Assembly (NCBI GenBank): GCA_947624955.1 | Contig: CANQMM010000007.1 | Span: 1-39,565 of the forward strand | Source: an uncultured Bacilli bacterium | Lineage (GTDB): Bacteria > Bacillota_I > Bacilli_A > RF39 > UBA660 | Direction of reading: 5' to 3' | Length of the DNA: 39,565 nucleotides | Shown here: positions 6,971-14,381 of the stretch, in pieces | How positions within the stretch are numbered: the first letter of the stretch is position 1 | How the letters are laid out: every line of letters begins with the position of its first letter | Translations under genes and position numbers: made by a program | The notes under the pieces: model-generated | Databases searched by the model: none | The model's input: the letters and a program-made list of their open reading frames with translations, nothing else | What the model was told of the DNA's origin: nothing

Positions 6971-7000
6971 TAAAAAACTAGACTGATTATTTGTCTAGTT
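6971..7000 (-). terminator. terminator of the hisS-asnS-gatCAB operon
   Basis: On the minus strand AACTAGAC (6993-7000) pairs with GTCTAGTT (6976-6983), followed by a T-run. The hairpin loop carries the gatB stop codon region. Confidence 0.8.
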
Positions 7001-8438
7001 CTTGTTTTAAGATTTCTTTAGTCATTACAGGGTTGGCTTTGCCTTTCGTTTCTTTCATTACTTGGCCGACAAAGTAGTCAAATAAATTAGTGTGACCATT
7101 ATGATAATCGGCAATTTGCTCTTGATGAGTAGCTAAAATATTTTTAATGATGGTCGTTAATTCTTGCGTATCGGATATTTGACTATTAGCATTGATAAAT
7201 TCTTGAGGACTTTTCTTCTCTTCAAGTGATTTAGTAAATATTTCTTTGGCTTGTTTAGAAGATATTTTATTAGATTCTAAGGCGTCAGTAATGAGTTTTA
7301 ACTCTTTTGGTCGCAAGTAGAATTCATCGATACTGATAGAGTCTTTATTTAATTCACTGATGATATTGACTGTAACCCAGTTAGCGGCCCTTTTAGGGTC
7401 AATACCGATATTTACGCATTCTTCAAAGTAATCGGAAATAGCTTTTTCTTTAACTAAGACGGTGGCATCATAATTAGATAAACCGAGTTCATTAATGTAT
7501 TTATTCTTCCGGTCTAAGGCAAGCATCGGAATGGAATTTTTAATTTCTTTTAACCATTCGGGGTCAATTTTAAATTTAGGAATATTGGGTTCAACAAAGT
7601 ATTTGTAATCGATTTCATCAACTTTACTACGCATAAATTTGGTGGTACCGGATTCTTCGTCCCATCTTCTAGTTTGTTGCTCCATTTCAGCGTATTTACC
7701 GGTTTCTTTTAGTTCAATTTGGCGGTTTATTTCATAATTGATGGCATCCCGAACGCCCCCAAAGGAGTTAACGTTTTTCATCTCGACTTTAGTTCCCCAA
7801 TTGTCAGGATTATTTTCGTCTAAGGAGGCATCCATAATTGAAACGTTGACATCACATCTTATTTGGCCCTTTTTGCTATCGGCATCGGAGATATTGGCAT
7901 ACTGATAGATACTGCGCATGTGTTCTAAAAATGCTACTGCTTCATCGGCACTATGTAAGTCGGGTTCAGTTACTAATTCTAAAAGTGGAATGCCAGCTCG
8001 GTTATAATCGATATTACTTGTAGAATAGTAATGATCTAAACTAGCGGTGTCTTCTTCTAAGTGGATGTTATTAATCCGAACTTTATGTAATTCCCCATTA
8101 TATTCAAATTCGACATAGCCATCAGTTCCCACCGGAATGGGTTTGGTGTTTTGGGTAATTTGGTAACCTTTGGGTAAATCTGGATAGTAATAATTTTTTC
8201 TTTCAAAATACATATATTCTGGTTGTGTACAATGTAAAATCATACTAGCCATTAAACTTAAACGAACTGCTTCTTTATTGACAACAGGCAAAGTACCCGG
8301 GAAAGCCATATCGACAGGTCGGACATTACTATTTGGGGAACCACTAAAGGAATTTTTTGCACTCGAAAATACTTTAGATTTAGTTTTAGAAATTTCACAG
8401 TGCATTTCGAGTCCAATTTTCGCTAAGTATTTAGTCAT
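6987..8438 (-). CDS. gatB: Asp/Glu-tRNA amidotransferase subunit B
   Basis: GatB phosphorylates the mischarged Glu (or Asp) on tRNA and passes it ammonia, making Gln-tRNA(Gln) or Asn-tRNA(Asn). At 483 residues it is full length. Signatures include KIGLEMHCEI at the N-terminus, FPGTLPVVN, YYYPDLPKGYQITQ, RCDVNVSI and KVEMKNVNSFGGVRDAINYE. A helical/YqeY-like tail follows, ending in GKANP. It is last in the operon and overlaps the gatA end by eight bases, consistent with coupled translation of the complex. Because AsnRS is encoded in the same operon, the main product is presumably Gln-tRNA(Gln); whether a GlnRS exists elsewhere cannot be seen. Confidence 0.95.
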   Translation of the reverse strand: MTKYLAKIGLEMHCEISKTKSKVFSSAKNSFSGSPNSNVRPVDMAFPGTLPVVNKEAVRLSLMASMILHCTQPEYMYFERKNYYYPDLPKGYQITQNTKPIPVGTDGYVEFEYNGELHKVRINNIHLEEDTASLDHYYSTSNIDYNRAGIPLLELVTEPDLHSADEAVAFLEHMRSIYQYANISDADSKKGQIRCDVNVSIMDASLDENNPDNWGTKVEMKNVNSFGGVRDAINYEINRQIELKETGKYAEMEQQTRRWDEESGTTKFMRSKVDEIDYKYFVEPNIPKFKIDPEWLKEIKNSIPMLALDRKNKYINELGLSNYDATVLVKEKAISDYFEECVNIGIDPKRAANWVTVNIISELNKDSISIDEFYLRPKELKLITDALESNKISSKQAKEIFTKSLEEKKSPQEFINANSQISDTQELTTIIKNILATHQEQIADYHNGHTNLFDYFVGQVMKETKGKANPVMTKEILKQELDK

Positions 8439-9897
8439 GATTTGTCACCTCTTTAGCTATTTGATTGCGGTAATTCATAGTATTTTCAAGCGCATAGGCA
8501 ATATTTAAAACATTAGCATCATCGTAGCAGTTACCGGTAATATTGATACCTACTGGTAAGCCGCTTATAAAACCATTAGGAATGGTGATAGATGGGAAAC
8601 CGCCAAAGTTACCAATTTGTAAATGTTCTTCCAAAATTTCAGAATTGCTATCCAATTTAGTGTTGGAATTTTCTAACGGTTTAGCCGGACCACTCCCAAC
8701 CGGTAAAATGACCGCATCATAAGTAGCGAATAGTTCTTTCCAACGATCGACTAAAAGTCGGCGAACACGTTGGGCATTCTTGAAATAACGTTCTTGATTT
8801 TCTCTTTGTAAAATGTAAGAACCGATAACAAAACGTCTTTTAATAAGGGGTGAAAAACCTTTAGTACGGTGGTCTTTCATCATGGCAATATAATTTTCAC
8901 CCGCGCCCCGAGGCCCAAAGATAATCCCGGTTAGATTACTCATATTAGAAGTAGCTTCCGCACAAGATATGGTAACGTAAGTAGCCGGTTCCGCATTGAG
9001 CAAAGTCCGGTCGACGCTTACTTCTTCGACGGTAACTCCTAAGTTTTTAAGATTATCTAAAGTTCGGTGAAAATTAGCTAAGTGTTCTTTTAACTCGGCA
9101 TTAGCGTGCGGATAGTTCGCTATGTCACAAATTTCTTTGATGTAACAAACTTTCTTACCTTTAACTTGACCGTTTAAGGAAGCCCGTAAATGGATATTTT
9201 CAGAATCCCAACTCGTCATATCATTGGGGTCAATGCCTTTCATTGCATCAACGACAATGGCGGCATCTTGGACATTTCGCGTAAGAACACCACAGTGGTC
9301 TAAGCTCGAAGCAAAAGCAAATAAGCCGTAACGTGAAATCATCCCATAAGTTGGTTTATAGCCAACGATACCACAATAAGCAGCAGGTTTTCTAATTGAA
9401 TCTCCAGTATCACTACCTAAGGCATACGGATAGACGCCACTAGCTACCGCACAAGCACTTCCGGCTGAAGAACCGGCACACATTCTTGTTGGATTCCAAG
9501 GATTTTTGACTATCCCAGTATGGCCTGTAGTACCTGTTCCGCCCATACCAAATTCATCTAAGACGGTTTTATTAACGGGAACGGCACCGGCTTTTTCAAG
9601 ATTTAAAACGGCCGTTGCAGAAAAGAATGGCACATAATCTTTTAAAGTATTAGATGATCCCGTAGATAAGATACCTTTGGTTGAATAGTTATCTTTAATA
9701 CCATAGGGAATACCGGAAAGTAAATTATCAGTAATTTCCCTAGGTTTAGCATCATCTAAAATAGTAACAAAAGCATTATATTTTTCTTGAACTTTGTGAG
9801 ATAATTCCAAAGATTCTTGGATTAGTTCTTCACTCGTAACTTCGCCATTTTTTAGAAGTTCGTGAAGCTCTTCAATAGTTTTATGCATATATTTCAT
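8431..9897 (-). CDS. gatA: Asp/Glu-tRNA amidotransferase subunit A (amidase)
   Basis: GatA releases ammonia from glutamine or asparagine for GatB. The amidase-signature triad is visible: the Lys in GIKDN, the first Ser in CAGSSAGSACAVASG, and the nucleophile Ser in GSDTGDSIRKPAAYCG. In most relatives the last motif is DTGGS, so an Asp replaces the second Gly next to the nucleophile. The downstream VGYKPTYGMISRYGLFAFASSLDH motif is well conserved, so I expect an active enzyme. Length is normal (488). AGGTGA five bases before the ATG ending at 9897 supports that start. The end overlaps gatB. Confidence 0.94.
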   Translation of the reverse strand: MKYMHKTIEELHELLKNGEVTSEELIQESLELSHKVQEKYNAFVTILDDAKPREITDNLLSGIPYGIKDNYSTKGILSTGSSNTLKDYVPFFSATAVLNLEKAGAVPVNKTVLDEFGMGGTGTTGHTGIVKNPWNPTRMCAGSSAGSACAVASGVYPYALGSDTGDSIRKPAAYCGIVGYKPTYGMISRYGLFAFASSLDHCGVLTRNVQDAAIVVDAMKGIDPNDMTSWDSENIHLRASLNGQVKGKKVCYIKEICDIANYPHANAELKEHLANFHRTLDNLKNLGVTVEEVSVDRTLLNAEPATYVTISCAEATSNMSNLTGIIFGPRGAGENYIAMMKDHRTKGFSPLIKRRFVIGSYILQRENQERYFKNAQRVRRLLVDRWKELFATYDAVILPVGSGPAKPLENSNTKLDSNSEILEEHLQIGNFGGFPSITIPNGFISGLPVGINITGNCYDDANVLNIAYALENTMNYRNQIAKEVTNHD

Positions 9898-9905
9898 AAG
9901 TTCAC

Positions 9906-10202
9906 CTACCCGACGATCTTCGGAACAGTTATTTCACTGCCTTCGGTTTCGTCACAATTAGCTAAAAGTTCTTCAACAGGAATAGATTCTTCGACGATAT
10001 CCTCTCTTAGAGTATAAGTAAAATCATCGAGACAATGGGTCATCGGAGGAACTTTAGCAATATCTTTAATATCATTAACGGAATCAGCTGTGGCATCGAT
10101 TATTCCAAACTCATCTAAAACCATTTGATTTTCTTCGGGGGTTAGACCAATCAGTAATTTATCAGCTAATTCATCAACTAATTCACTTGTAAATTTCGTC
10201 AT
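9906..10202 (-). CDS. gatC: Asp/Glu-tRNA amidotransferase subunit C
   Basis: This 98-residue protein is the GatC chaperone that wraps around GatA and links it to GatB. Support comes from size, the order gatC-gatA-gatB, the N-terminal helix pattern with ELADKLLIGLTPEENQMVLDEF and the mid-protein VPPMTHCLD, which corresponds to the family's VxPTxHxxx region. A GAGGT site sits six bases before the ATG. The gap to gatA is eight bases. Confidence 0.88.
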   Translation of the reverse strand: MTKFTSELVDELADKLLIGLTPEENQMVLDEFGIIDATADSVNDIKDIAKVPPMTHCLDDFTYTLREDIVEESIPVEELLANCDETEGSEITVPKIVG

Positions 10203-10215
10203 AATTATACCTCAT

Positions 10216-11586
10216 CTAATAATCACAGTTACCAGGGGTTCTTGGGAATGGGATGACATCTCTAATATTTTCGACCCCTGTTAGATAAATAAGTAATCTT
10301 TCAAAGCCCATACCAAAGCCAGAATGATAACAACCACCATATTTTCTTAAATTAATAAACCAATCGACAGTATCGATATCGACGTGTAAGTCTTGACAAC
10401 GTTGCATTAACTTAGCGTAATCTTCTTCCCTTTGGGAACCACCCATTAGTTCACCAGCACCAGGAACTTCTAGGTCAACAGCTGCCACGGTCGTATTATC
10501 AGGATTTAATTTCATATACCAAGCTTTAATATCTTTAGGCCAATTAGTAATAAATACAGGACCATTATAATACTCAGTAAGATATTTTTCGTGTTCTTTA
10601 GCAATATCATCTTGGTATGATGGAGTAAATTCCCATTGAACAGGAGCATTTTTTAAAATATCGACGGCTTCGTGATGGGTAATTCTAACGAATTGGGAAT
10701 TAACCAATTTAGTTAGTTTTTCTTTTAATCCTTTTTCGACGAATTCATCACAGAAAGCGATTTCTTGTGGACAATGTTCAAGAACATAGTTAACGATGTA
10801 TTTAAGCATTTCTTCTTCGATGTTCATTAAGCCATCTAAATCACAAAAGGCAATTTCCGGTTCAATCATCCAAAATTCATTAGCGTGGGTTTTCGTGTTG
10901 GAGTTTTCCGTTCTAAAGGTTGGCCCAAAAGTATAGATCTTTTTAAAGGCCATGGCAAATGCTTCACCGTGTAATTGACCAGTACCGGTTACAAAAGCTT
11001 GCTTACCAAATAGATCTTTACTCATATCGACGTGTCCATCTTTCATTGGAAGCTTATCAAAATTTAGAGTGGTTATTTTAAACATTTGGTCAGAACCTTC
11101 GCAATCAGCGGTCGTAATTAGTGGTGTATGGACATAAACGTAGTTATGGCTTTGGAAATATTCGTGAATGGCCATAGCAGCTACACTGCGAATTTTAAAG
11201 ACCGCTTGAAATAAGTTAGTCCGAGGTCGGAGATAAGCGACATCTCGTAGAAATTCGCGAGTATGTCTTTTAGGTTGAATTGGATAATCAGCGGGACAAT
11301 CACCTTCGAGAGTTATACTTTCCGCCTTCAATTCAAATTCTTGGTTACCGCCGATAGAAGGCACGATCTGTCCTGCGACTTTAATGGCACAACCAACTAA
11401 TAGTTTTTGAATTTCGGCAAAATTACTGATTGTTTGGTCATAGACAATTTGTAAATGTTGGAATGTCGTGCCATCAGAAAAGTCGATAAAACCAAATTCT
11501 TTTTGCTTACGATGTTGTTTAATCCATCCTTCAACGACAACGTGGTCATTGATTTTACTTTTTTGAAATAAATCTTTTAAATCCAT
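10216..11586 (-). CDS. asnS: asparaginyl-tRNA synthetase (class II)
   Basis: This enzyme charges tRNA(Asn) directly. The N-terminal OB-fold anticodon-binding domain (about 1-105, VEGWIKQHRKQKEFGFIDFSDG) is followed by a class II core. PIQPKRHTREFLRDVAYLRPRTN, motif 2 GPTFRTENSNTKTHANEFWMIEPE and motif 3 GFGMGFERLLIYLTG with the terminal PRTPGNCDY are AsnRS rather than AspRS signatures. The length of 456 is typical. It sits directly behind hisS, where Bacillus has aspS, and five bases separate the two genes. The presence of AsnRS makes GatCAB dispensable for Asn-tRNA formation. Confidence 0.94.
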   Translation of the reverse strand: MDLKDLFQKSKINDHVVVEGWIKQHRKQKEFGFIDFSDGTTFQHLQIVYDQTISNFAEIQKLLVGCAIKVAGQIVPSIGGNQEFELKAESITLEGDCPADYPIQPKRHTREFLRDVAYLRPRTNLFQAVFKIRSVAAMAIHEYFQSHNYVYVHTPLITTADCEGSDQMFKITTLNFDKLPMKDGHVDMSKDLFGKQAFVTGTGQLHGEAFAMAFKKIYTFGPTFRTENSNTKTHANEFWMIEPEIAFCDLDGLMNIEEEMLKYIVNYVLEHCPQEIAFCDEFVEKGLKEKLTKLVNSQFVRITHHEAVDILKNAPVQWEFTPSYQDDIAKEHEKYLTEYYNGPVFITNWPKDIKAWYMKLNPDNTTVAAVDLEVPGAGELMGGSQREEDYAKLMQRCQDLHVDIDTVDWFINLRKYGGCYHSGFGMGFERLLIYLTGVENIRDVIPFPRTPGNCDY

Positions 11587-11591
11587 AATTT

Positions 11592-12911
11592 TTATTCTCC
11601 TTTAATTATCTTGATACATTTTTGAATATCAACGGTTTCTTGGGTACTATTTAGCATATCTTTGATGGTAAGAGTACCGGTATTCTGCTCATCTTCCCCA
11701 ATTAAAATGACATAAGGTATGCCACTACGGTCAGCAAATTTAATCTTTTGGGCAATCTTTTTATCTTGATAGTAAATATCAGTTGAGATATTGGCGTCTC
11801 TTAAGGCATTAGCTGTTTGCGTAGCGTAAGGTATTTGAGCGGCATCTAGCGGAATTAGCAAGCATTCTGTAAGATTATTTTTAAAATTAGGAAGAAGATT
11901 AACTTCTTTTAATTTAGCAAATAACCTTGTTAAGCCGATGGAAATACCGACACCCGGTAGGGTTTCATTAGAATAGTATGAGGTCAAATTCTCATAACGG
12001 CCACCGGAACAAACGCTACCTAAATCACGGTGGTCATCGATAATTGTTTCATAGACAGTTCCAGTATAGTAATCGAGGCCACGCGCAATAGTCAAATCGA
12101 TGTGGTAATATTCTTCCACAATGTTCGCGGATTCTAAATAATTTAAAACGGTTGTTAATTCTTCGATTCCTAAATTAAATAGATTATTCGAAATTGCCAT
12201 ATCTTTTAATTTAGTTAGAATCTCGGCATTAGTTCCCTTAGTAGTTATAAAACCAATTATTGTTTCAATTTGCTTTTGAGCAATGCCAATTTTTTGCAAT
12301 TCTTCAATGACGGCATTTGACCCGATTTTATCTAGTTTATCGATAATTCTTAAGATATCGGTAATTTGGCCCTCGAGGTTTAAAGACTCGAAGAAGCCAT
12401 TTAAAATCTTTCGGTTATTTAGATGAATAGTAAATTTACCAAAGCCAAGTTTTTGAAATATTTGATAGATGATAAGAGGCATTTCGGCATCATAAGCTAA
12501 ACTCAAGGTTTCTTGTCCAATTACATCGATATCACATTGGTAGAATTCGCGATAACGGCCGTGTTGTGGTCTTTCCCCACGGAAAACCTTCCCGATTTGG
12601 TAACGTTTAAAAGGAAAGATTAATTCATTACGGTGACTAGCAACATATCTAGCAAGAGGAACAGTGAGGTCAAAACGTAAGGCTAAGTCATTTTCCCCTT
12701 TCGTAAAACGATATATTTGTTTTTCAGTTTCCCCGCCGGCTTTAGCTAGTAAAACATTAGCATATTCAATAACCGGGGTATCAAGTGGGAGATAACCAAA
12801 TGCCTCATAGACATTTTGAATCGTATTTTTTATTTGATTAAAGACGATTTGGTCTTTAGGTAATAATTCCATAAAGCCGGGTAAGATTTTAGGTTCAATT
12901 GGATTTTTCAT
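11592..12911 (-). CDS. hisS: histidyl-tRNA synthetase
   Basis: HisRS charges tRNA(His) as a class II dimer. The 439 residues show motif 2 FRGERPQHGRYREFYQCDIDVIG, the HisA motif ARGLDYYTGTVYE, and VGISIGLTRLFAKL, followed by a C-terminal anticodon-binding domain (about 345-439). The start has a GGAAG site and lies about 21 bases after the T-box terminator. It is the first gene of the hisS-asnS-gatCAB operon. Confidence 0.95.
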   Translation of the reverse strand: MKNPIEPKILPGFMELLPKDQIVFNQIKNTIQNVYEAFGYLPLDTPVIEYANVLLAKAGGETEKQIYRFTKGENDLALRFDLTVPLARYVASHRNELIFPFKRYQIGKVFRGERPQHGRYREFYQCDIDVIGQETLSLAYDAEMPLIIYQIFQKLGFGKFTIHLNNRKILNGFFESLNLEGQITDILRIIDKLDKIGSNAVIEELQKIGIAQKQIETIIGFITTKGTNAEILTKLKDMAISNNLFNLGIEELTTVLNYLESANIVEEYYHIDLTIARGLDYYTGTVYETIIDDHRDLGSVCSGGRYENLTSYYSNETLPGVGISIGLTRLFAKLKEVNLLPNFKNNLTECLLIPLDAAQIPYATQTANALRDANISTDIYYQDKKIAQKIKFADRSGIPYVILIGEDEQNTGTLTIKDMLNSTQETVDIQKCIKIIKGE

Positions 12912-12931: not shown

Positions 12932-12957
12932 AAAAAAGTACTTAGTCGTGTAAGGAC
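12932..12957 (-). terminator. T-box-controlled terminator
   Basis: GTCCTTA (12951-12957) can pair with TAAGTAC (12938-12944) immediately before a T-run (12932-12937). It shares the CCTTAC strand with the antiterminator, so the two folds exclude each other. A larger alternative uses AGTAC/GTACT further out. Confidence 0.7.
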
Positions 12958-13129
12958 GCTTTTTAGCGCGGTGCCACCTTACTTTACTAGGTACTCTCAT
13001 TATCTTTATCGCATATATGCGTTTCTAATTAGGGAAAGTGTTATTCGTTATAGTTTATAATCGGCATTTGCACCATCTAGCCTTCTCTTTATTATAAAGT
13101 TATAATTACTTCTCTTTCCTTAGAAAATC
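12932..13129 (-). promoter_or_regulatory. T-box leader, predicted tRNA(Asn)-responsive
   Basis: The minus-strand leader carries the T-box core AAGGTGGCACCGCG (12967-12980). Stem I closes with GGAAAG/CTTTCC and CTAA/TTAG; its internal loop has AGAAGTA on the 5' side and CGAATAACA on the 3' side, and the helix above is TTATAACTTTATAAT paired with ATTATAAACTATAA. The triplet at the canonical place, followed by A, is AAC (13040-13042), an Asn codon. The antiterminator is GTAAGG-[TGGCACC]-GCGC-loop-GCGT-CCTTAC. Its variable base C pairs with discriminator G73, which tRNA(Asn) has and bacterial tRNA(His) (C73) does not. A palindromic CGCATATATGCG stem III lies between. Uncharged tRNA(Asn) would permit transcription of hisS-asnS-gatCAB. 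Confidence 0.88.
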
Positions 13130-13135
13130 AATTTA

Positions 13136-13164
13136 ATTTTATCTTAGATTAAGGAAAATGTCAA
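13136..13164 (-). promoter_or_regulatory. promoter of the hisS operon T-box leader
   Basis: On the minus strand TTGACA (13159-13164), 17 bases and TAAAAT (13136-13141) form a near-consensus sigma-70/SigA promoter. The -35 box contains the TGA stop of the upstream gene. Confidence 0.85.
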
Positions 13165-14381
13165 TCAGTCTCGTTCTGGGGTTCTAGCTGATAAGTATTA
13201 GGATTTAAGTAGTAATAATCGATAATGGGATTATTTTCTCTTAAAATACTAATTACTATCTGATCATTTTCTTTAGATACTTGGAAAGGTATTTTATTAG
13301 TGATGGATGGGTCGATCTCGACTTGAATATCTTCGGAATTTAATTTTTGATCTTCAAGATTACGGATACTTAGTTTAAGATTAGAGTCAACGGTAAAGAA
13401 GACGCCTTCTTGGAAGGTAATATATAAGTAATGTTCTTTAAAGATGGCTAAAGGTGTACTATCTAAAACTCGGTAAGTAGTAATATCTTGTTCATTAACT
13501 GTCTCTCTTCGCGGACTTAAATAGTAATAATTATTATCTATTTGATAGACATCCGTAATTGGGGTATTAGATATATAGATGTTATCTTGAAAATTAGTCA
13601 CCATCCAGTATTTAGCTTTAGCTATATAAGTATGGGATTGCTCATTATATTTTATTAAGTCATAGGAAAATGGTACATCTTGGGAGATATTATTTCCAAC
13701 TTTGATGATTCCATACTTATTTTGGGCATTCATGACGATGTATTCATCATTAACCCCTAAACCTTTATTTTGGCTATCGATGAGGGAAGCCCTTACACCA
13801 CTTACTTGGTAAACTATTTTGTTATGTTCAATATCTACTAGATAAACGATTTTTTCTTTACTAGTTGAGTCATCGATAAATAAATAATTATTATATTGTT
13901 TGATAGGAATATCTTCTTGGTAATCGTATTCCGATAAGACAGAATAAGCGACATGACAAGAACTCTTACTATTGAGACAGCGATAATTATAGATTAAATT
14001 ACCATCATCATCGTAAAAGTAAAGAATTCCATCGACTTTAGCTAGCTTGTCCGGATTATCAGGGATAGGATAATCAGTAGGAATTTCAGGATAGGGATTA
14101 GAACTTTTAATAACTTGATATTTTATCCAAAAAGGCGTCATTTCAACTTTATGGTCACTCGTTAAATCATAAGTTCTAAAGACATAACCAAAACTTAAGT
14201 ATTCGGTGATAGTGCCATTATCTAATTCGATTACTTGCTTTTTTAAAGTAATAATTGGAGATTTGCCTTTTTCATAACGTATGTAATCGGTAAGGAAAAA
14301 ACCAATCCAAGTAATGAGTAATAAAAGGAAGAATACTTCCAAAACTCTTTTGAGTTTTTTTAATTTACGAAATATTAGCAT
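13161..14381 (-). CDS. membrane-anchored hypothetical protein, possible WG-like repeats
   Basis: The product has 406 residues, not assigned to a named family. A basic N-terminus (MLIFRKLKKLKR) is followed by a hydrophobic segment VFFLLLLITWIGFFLTDYI (about 15-34), giving an uncleaved anchor with the rest outside. The remainder is beta-rich with many Tyr, Asp and Asn. Segments such as KYGIIKVG...VPFSYDLIKY recall WG repeats, which would suggest a propeller-like sensor domain; this is weak. One Cys pair (residues near 137 and 144) could form a disulfide. The start codon overlaps the dtd stop (TAATG), with AAGGAGGT inside dtd, so translation is coupled to dtd. Confidence 0.6.
   Translation of the reverse strand: MLIFRKLKKLKRVLEVFFLLLLITWIGFFLTDYIRYEKGKSPIITLKKQVIELDNGTITEYLSFGYVFRTYDLTSDHKVEMTPFWIKYQVIKSSNPYPEIPTDYPIPDNPDKLAKVDGILYFYDDDGNLIYNYRCLNSKSSCHVAYSVLSEYDYQEDIPIKQYNNYLFIDDSTSKEKIVYLVDIEHNKIVYQVSGVRASLIDSQNKGLGVNDEYIVMNAQNKYGIIKVGNNISQDVPFSYDLIKYNEQSHTYIAKAKYWMVTNFQDNIYISNTPITDVYQIDNNYYYLSPRRETVNEQDITTYRVLDSTPLAIFKEHYLYITFQEGVFFTVDSNLKLSIRNLEDQKLNSEDIQVEIDPSITNKIPFQVSKENDQIVISILRENNPIIDYYYLNPNTYQLEPQNETD

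Follow-up and report, generated by a model that had tools for sequence, protein, structure and literature searches.

The window (the whole 39,565-nt stretch of DNA analysed here, from an uncultured Bacilli bacterium) carries on its reverse strand the operon hisS-asnS-gatC-gatA-gatB behind a promoter and a leader with the features of a T-box (Table 1). A preliminary description made from the letters of the DNA had proposed this gene order, and NCBIfam models bear it out; gatC and gatA score under their cut-offs and were accepted because their context fits. Downstream of gatB lies a HerA-like gene, which is the follower in G001, G021 and G175 as well. Upstream are relA, dtd and, between dtd and the leader, a 406-aa ORF (13161-14381, reverse strand) that has no NCBIfam match; weakly similar ORFs (25-39%) occur in some relatives. 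The -35 box of the leader's promoter shares bases with the stop codon of the preceding ORF, and promoter-like matches numbered 3 in the stretch against 1.5 expected by chance. A weak T-box-like match antisense to gatB (7491-7667, forward strand, 10.9 bits) was taken as chance.

Table 1. Features of the hisS-asnS-gatCAB locus and its leader, in window coordinates.
Feature	Position	Strand	Detail
Promoter of leader	13136..13164	-	TTGACA (13164-13159), 17-nt spacer, TAAAAT (13141-13136); 11/12 consensus positions
Lower Stem I helix, 5' strand UUUCUAAGGAAAG	13114..13126	-	MFE fold: pairs with CUUUCC-(CUAA)-UUAGAAA
Specifier loop, 5' side AGAAGUA (AGUA half of S-turn)	13107..13113	-	Rfam alignment
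Distal Stem I: AAAGAGA bulge and UGGUGCAAA terminal loop (tRNA-elbow platform)	13067..13090	-	AGAGA/GGUG consensus in Rfam alignment
Specifier triplet AAC (Asn)	13040..13042	-	Next A = 13039; S-turn GAA = 13046-13044
Lower Stem I helix, 3' strand, with 4-nt 3' bulge	13022..13038	-	MFE fold, covariation
ACGCAUAUAUGCGAUAA, candidate Stem IIA/B element	13006..13022	-	Aligned to that RF00230 region
Short Stem III segment GUACCUAGUA, doubling as part of terminator 5' arm	12985..12994	-	
Antiterminator: A1 GUAAGG/UCCUUAC, 7-nt bulge UGGCACC, A2 GCGCUAAAAAGCG	12950..12984	-	UGGC = 12976-12973
Terminator 3' arm ACUAAGUAC, then U6	12932..12946	-	
RBS-like AAAGGAAG before hisS	12926-12919	-	
hisS, histidine--tRNA ligase, first gene	11592..12911	-	TIGR00442 419 bits
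asnS, asparagine--tRNA ligase, second gene	10216..11586	-	NF003037 582 bits, TIGR00457 537 bits
gatC	9906..10202	-	TIGR00135 40.1 bits, cut-off 47.1; position between asnS and gatA
gatA	8431..9897	-	TIGR00132 427 bits, cut-off 481
gatB	6987..8438	-	NF004012 553 bits

Among the operon's products, HisRS (11592-12911, reverse strand) is 67, 51 and 63% identical to the proteins of G001, G007 and G011, respectively. It is 54-60% identical to those of 80 genome contigs, most of them labelled Clostridia and with named Clostridium and Peptoniphilus among them. Compared with the other matches listed from the window's bacterial family it is only roughly 25-38% identical, and thus differs from the HisRS customary there. 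The window's genome has asnB, and no GlnRS over cut-off was found in it, the sole glnS-type match falling in gltX. GatCAB would thus be needed for Gln-tRNA(Gln), and the reading of it as an Asn-only enzyme was rejected.

The T-box model RF00230 aligns to the leader from end to end (12949-13125, reverse strand; model 1-219) at 85.1 bits and E 3.3e-19. Rfam's curated gathering score is 93, and a scan at that threshold therefore does not report the leader. Searching the whole genome returned 14 matches at E 2.6e-9 or better, the leader among them (E 2.2e-19). The hallmarks present are Stem I, the specifier loop, the S-turn AGUA/GAA, the distal AGAGA bulge and the GGUG loop, followed by an antiterminator, GUAAGG-UGGCACC-GCGC..GCG-UCCUUAC, with UGGN in a 7-nt bulge flanked by A1 and A2. 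The lower Stem I helix reads UUUCUAA-GGAAAG / CUUUCC-CUAA-UUAGAAA and covaries across 23 selected window-type leaders, the window included: arms pair with their own partners at a mean of -8.8 kcal/mol, compared with -5.2 kcal/mol for partners from other loci, and 0/10000 permutations did as well. These 23 loci are those whose two arms could be excised by motif, with L274 kept although its 5' arm was miscut. A chance match was rejected on the strength of this covariation, that of the terminator described below and the E value of 3.3e-19.

Two usual parts of a T-box are missing from the leader (12932-13132, reverse strand). By eye, no GA-type K-turn signature is present in the window leader or the other leaders of the helix test, and no Stem II precedes ACGCAUAUAUGCGAUAA, most RF00230 Stem II columns being deleted in the alignment. 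We do not take a K-turn as T-box-defining, and the accessible part of one review gives S. aureus ileS as a proposed case without one (PMC7583486). Lacking both parts, the leader is a T-box of reduced form with putative tRNA handling.

The specifier loop is formed by AGAAGUA / GAAUAACA, and on its 3' strand, GAA-U-AAC-A, the triplet AAC and a following A stand directly before the closing helix CUUUCC. This is the frame that TBDB calls '+0', positions 2-4 counted from the 3' end of the bulge, in the passages of that source at hand (PMC7778990). We hand-read the specifiers of the 13 other T-boxes of the genome (E 2.6e-9 or better) and named their genes with NCBIfam; in all 13, the like place holds a codon of the synthetase in the T-box's own operon (GAC aspS, GUA valS, CUU leuS, GAA gltX, AUG metG, AUC ileS, UUC pheS, UCU serS, CCU proS, ACU thrS, UAC tyrS, GCU alaS and GGC glyS). 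Eleven of them have a long Stem I, of which nine fit frame +0 and two (alaS, pheS) are one base off; the tyrS and glyS T-boxes have a short Stem I. The serS T-box has a C, not a purine, after the codon, and in the leuS, proS, thrS and alaS operons the second ORF encodes the synthetase. Because these T-boxes show the like placement and the closing helix covaries, AAC at 13042-13040 is taken as the specifier, the lower-helix covariation supporting the placement of the loop as a whole. The call of AAC in the canonical specifier place with a purine next thus holds, the Rfam alignment and the fold both showing AAC there.

The same-genus genome G001 also has AAC, as part of AACAAC and with hisS-asnS behind it. 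Since G001 has AGC before GAA, only the AAC behind GAA is common to the two leaders, and the window's first AAC, directly 5' of the S-turn GAA, was rejected as specifier. A Thr specifier (ACA, in the +1 frame) was rejected too, the operon having no thrS and both tRNA-Thr genes seen having A73. As read from the sequence, the specifier is AAC, which marks the leader as an Asn-type T-box.

The acceptor bulge bears on the choice between tRNAs in a more limited way. According to ARAGORN, tRNA-Asn of the window's genome ends in GCCA and tRNA-His in CCCA; the discriminators are G73 for tRNA-Asn and tRNA-Asp and C73 for tRNA-His. The genome's own tRNA genes thereby confirm what had been said of the bulge TGGCACC, that it suits the G73 of tRNA-Asn and not the C73 of tRNA-His. 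UGGC speaks against His because of that C73, without excluding it, because TBDB leaves the discriminator of His out of account on the ground that tRNA-His can pair this base internally (accessible passages of PMC7778990). By itself the bulge is no pointer to Asn, because its C fits every G73 tRNA, which among the tRNA genes seen are those for Asn, Asp, two Ser, Trp, one Gln and one Arg. The preliminary description had counted specifier and bulge as two positions agreeing on tRNA-Asn; the specifier does so and the bulge argues against His, but the bulge does not single out Asn from Asp. Among the 14 T-boxes of the genome UGGC is unique to the hisS leader, and the aspS T-box has UGGU.

The terminator has an unusual design. 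The Stem III segment GUACCUAGU pairs with the distal ACUAAGUAC, followed by U6, and the hairpin GAGUACCUAGU..ACUAAGUACUUUUUU has a predicted fold of -21.2 kcal/mol. This hairpin surrounds the antiterminator and leaves it unbroken, and the two would therefore compete by way of the Stem III segment. The outer arms covary across 37 window-type leaders (mean -9.9 vs -6.6 kcal/mol, 0/10000 permutations as good; another run comprised 36 leaders). The remaining 38 family leaders follow the usual design, in which the better partner of the terminator arm is the T-box sequence itself; 35 of them are Asp-type, and the 3 Asn-type ones include G168 and G285, where the scan picked the wrong tail. These counts are approximate, as the automatic split sometimes confuses an inner T-run with the tail (at G192 and G285 in the 36-leader run, at G168 and G285 in the 37-leader run). 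A simple terminator scan of the stretch, whose 8-base loop limit cannot see a hairpin enclosing an antiterminator, returned none. By eye, the genome's own valS, ileS, metG and tyrS leaders (L002, L006, L005, L012) have similar terminator arms.

The leader is very probably a transcription-attenuating T-box riboswitch specific for tRNA-Asn and descended from an Asp-type (GAC) hisS leader. RNA polymerase would start at the promoter just 5' of the leader, and AAC in Stem I would be read by tRNA-Asn through its anticodon GUU. With tRNA-Asn uncharged, the UGGC bulge would pair with its free GCCA end, the antiterminator and Stem III would be held, and the outer terminator helix between the Stem III segment and the ACUAAGUAC arm would not form; hisS-asnS-gatC-gatA-gatB would then be transcribed, HisRS and GatCAB rising along with AsnRS. 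When it is charged, the terminator would form. We infer tRNA binding, the sensing of charging and the direction of regulation from the anatomy, and read-through of hisS, asnS and gatCAB upon uncharged tRNA-Asn appears the most likely outcome. With asnS as the second gene behind the leader, the predicted control would thus cover a gene for making Asn-tRNA(Asn).

The ancestry of the leader is seen in its closest counterparts, which are orthologous hisS leaders of relatives. The best 16 of the 74 other family hisS leaders are 70-77% identical to it (scores 143-208) and read AAC, GAAC, GACAAC or GAC. The GAC leaders of G021 and G175, whose operons run hisS-aspS-asnS-gatC-gatA-gatB, are 74-75% identical (scores 165 and 157). 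Scores against the 13 other T-boxes of the window's genome were only 25-64 (39 for the aspS T-box), and a copy of the genome's own aspS T-box or of any other was rejected. Because relatives' hisS leaders align far better, the leader most likely changed in place and was not borrowed from aspS; a GAC-to-AAC change in place is the best supported reading, with GAC the presumed older state.

Such a change had been proposed at the outset together with replacement of aspS by asnS, and the first part agrees with the 74-75% identity to GAC leaders while the second does not hold in its simple form. In relatives asnS is in the hisS operon already, before or behind the AspRS gene; G001, of the window's genus, has hisS-asnS-aspS-gatC-gatA-gatB under AAC. 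The window's operon has no AspRS gene; aspS lies on contig C23 under its own GAC T-box. The arrangement is probably better read as AspRS having gone from an operon that holds asnS in relatives as well. In the window lineage, then, AspRS would have moved out of the operon and the hisS leader would have come to read AAC, matching the asnS behind hisS. The hisS gene itself looks as if it had been swapped in place between the old leader and asnS. In the other genome of the genus, G002 (77% complete), neither hisS nor asnS was matched.

For a wider view, hisS loci were taken from 113 genomes of the window's family, picked from the HisRS matches listed and not a random sample. A text pattern applied within 900 nt 5' of hisS caught a T-box in 76/113 and none in 37/113, 4 of the 37 having less than 400 nt upstream; all counts below cover pattern-caught leaders. 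Specifiers were hand-read, and 3 of 78 rows were dropped (L020 and L021, which duplicate L227 and L228, and L297, which has no readable Stem I). The 75 called leaders comprise 51 GAC and 1 GAU, making 52 Asp-type, and 11 AAC, 11 GAAC and 1 GACAAC, making 23 Asn-type. All 23 Asn-type leaders have UGGC in the acceptor bulge, as do 46 of the 52 Asp-type ones, the other 6 having UGGU.

Operon content, read within the fetched stretch, was tabulated for 65 of the 75 leaders, 10 having too little downstream DNA. All five operons with asnS and no AspRS (window, G168, G198, G265, G272) are Asn-type. Operons with both asnS and AspRS divide into 14 Asn-type and 11 Asp-type among 25, and of the 35 with AspRS and no asnS, 32 are Asp-type and 3 Asn-type. 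For these three exceptions (G050, G110 and G186; 89-93% complete) the AsnRS search at E<=1e-60, which matched 212/291 genomes, was negative, and their Asn-tRNA would have to come from AspRS and GatCAB. The presence of asnS is associated with the specifier (Fisher p 3.7e-6, kinship ignored), and 11/30 asnS-containing operons keep GAC. Which of the two genes comes first behind hisS predicts the specifier less well than operon content does: over all 75 leaders, asnS comes first in 10 Asn-type and 5 Asp-type cases, and AspRS in 13 Asn-type and 47 Asp-type cases.

The two specifier types alternate repeatedly within the family. On the best HisRS tree, a quick one built without a mixture model from 72/75 loci, the type switches at least 8 times, and well-supported branches force 5 of these switches; the window, G001 and G007 were left off because their HisRS is of another type. 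When phylogeny was respected by comparing specifier with content on independent pairs, 4-5 pairs running in both directions were available and the association was not significant. Within genus g8, G168 has AAC with AspRS outside the operon, compared with GAC and AspRS inside it in G009 and G269; within genus g20, G272 has GAAC compared with GAC in G021 and G175. Of the five genomes with asnS but not AspRS in the operon, three (the window's genome G000, G168 and G265) have aspS elsewhere under its own GAC T-box; the displaced aspS of G198 has no T-box by the text pattern, and in G272 a contig end truncates the gene.

A tentative reading, which we would give a little less than even weight, is that a single substitution or insertion flips the T-box of the hisS operon, in its reduced form lacking K-turn and Stem II, between Asp and Asn, driven by the operon's synthetase, with AspRS leaving under its own GAC T-box. 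Present-day intermediates would be GACAAC (G176), which holds both codons, and GAAC (11 leaders), in which Asn and Glu codons overlap. That gene content drove the specifier change is the presumption here, and it is weakened because in 13/23 Asn-type cases the gene that follows hisS is the one for AspRS and not asnS.

Other readings of the window's leader differ in the tRNA that it would sense. The window does read AACAC, in which CAC follows AAC two bases on, and a leader of this kind could sense tRNA-Asn and tRNA-His together. The idea carries over from GACAC, which accessible passages describe as characteristic of hisS-aspS T-boxes (PMC5313534) and for which others suggest sensing of tRNA-His and tRNA-Asp (PMC4342826); TBDB, in the part at hand, demands no discriminator match for His (PMC7778990). 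We consider such double sensing very improbable in the window, as CAC lies two bases on in only 4/23 Asn-type leaders (CAU in 2 more), AACAAC stands in the sister genome G001, the closing helix begins with the C of CAC, and CAC occupies the specifier place in 0/75 hand-called leaders. Even for GACAC, the source cited in the accessible part of PMC5313534 favours tRNA-Asp. With CAC kept in so few leaders and UGGC mismatching tRNA-His at C73, it is unlikely that His controls hisS here.

That the leader still senses Asp as in Bacillus hisS-aspS, tolerating a mismatch at the first specifier base, would suit the G73 of tRNA-Asp and a leader family that is mostly Asp-type (52/75). It would also require the very mismatch that T-boxes tend to avoid, their preference at the specifier being strictly Watson-Crick according to the passages of PMC7778990 at hand, and it leaves aside that AAC is common to the window and G001 and that aspS has a separate GAC T-box in the same genome; we regard it as less probable still. 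Least probable of all is a vestigial leader that lost regulation along with K-turn, Stem II and the AspRS gene. Its score under the Rfam cut-off and its reduced architecture would fit, but the leader still has its promoter and specifier loop, the distal bulge and loop, the acceptor bulge, and both an antiterminator and a terminator; helices covary across relatives of the same reduced form, and relatives' specifiers are codons of their own operons' enzymes. A functional tRNA-Asn sensor remains the reading we prefer.

The leader resembles the hisS-aspS T-boxes of Bacillus, Lactobacillus and Staphylococcus in having one T-box, hisS first, a second synthetase behind and an A after the specifier. 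The window has relA and dtd upstream, as does the Bacillus hisS-aspS locus. It differs from the hisS-aspS T-boxes in having AAC and not GAC, asnS and not aspS second, gatCAB downstream, no K-turn or Stem II, and a terminator that uses the Stem III segment. Bacillus hisS-aspS was thus an apt comparison for the preliminary description to draw, but there was no need to reach so far, the alternation being found within the window's own family (23 Asn-type, 52 Asp-type). A two-codon T-box for tRNA-Asn and tRNA-Glu with overlapping codons, on a transamidation operon of Clostridium acetobutylicum, was reportedly described by Saad et al. in 2012 and 2013. The window likewise has an Asn-type T-box ahead of gatCAB, and the GAAC loops of 11/75 family leaders recall those overlapping codons; unlike that system, the window has plain AAC with GAA out of register, and its operon begins with hisS and includes asnS, giving an AsnRS route beside GatCAB.

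Several of these elements have precedents. In the passages accessible, Wels et al. 2008 find Asn-tRNA ligase genes often second in Firmicutes T-box operons, allow operons of two ligases under one T-box and report no T-box upstream of amidotransferase genes; these passages name neither hisS-asnS nor its specifier, and they cover T-box specifier changes (PMC2494555). The same family also has a separate asnS T-box with an AAC specifier (G003, L232), which stands directly before asnS, away from hisS, and has UGGU. In an alignment comparison that took in no G003 asnS T-box, the window leader fell in with those of hisS. Asn-type T-boxes, hisS-aspS T-boxes, an Asn T-box on a transamidation operon, operons with asnS second and specifier changes are therefore known. 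The literature searched, with few subscription papers within reach, contained neither hisS-asnS-gatCAB under AAC nor repeated Asp/Asn alternation, nor a paper joining T-box, hisS, aspS and asnS. The family allows one orthologous leader to be followed through at least 8 switches on the best tree between codons one base apart, alongside gain, loss and relocation of the corresponding synthetase genes. Its natural same-genus pairs (G168 vs G009/G269, G272 vs G021/G175) make riboswitch retargeting testable, and it raises the question of what purpose is served by coupling hisS to an Asp or Asn sensor.

Some individual loci of the family add further variety. The loop of G176 (L255) reads GACAAC, which puts an Asp codon as well as one for Asn ahead of the closing helix, and may be a dual or intermediate sensor. 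G013 (L204:3826, L327:1435; 69% complete) has an AAC T-box directly before aspS and no asnS match. G009 has a second AspRS gene under a GAAC (Asn-type) T-box (L337:1415), its own hisS-asnS-aspS operon having GAC. An archaeal-type AspRS, matching the aspartate--tRNA(Asn) ligase model, stands behind hisS in many relatives (L228, L248, L225 and others); that of L228, the sole one of these scanned, scores 490 bits to the model.
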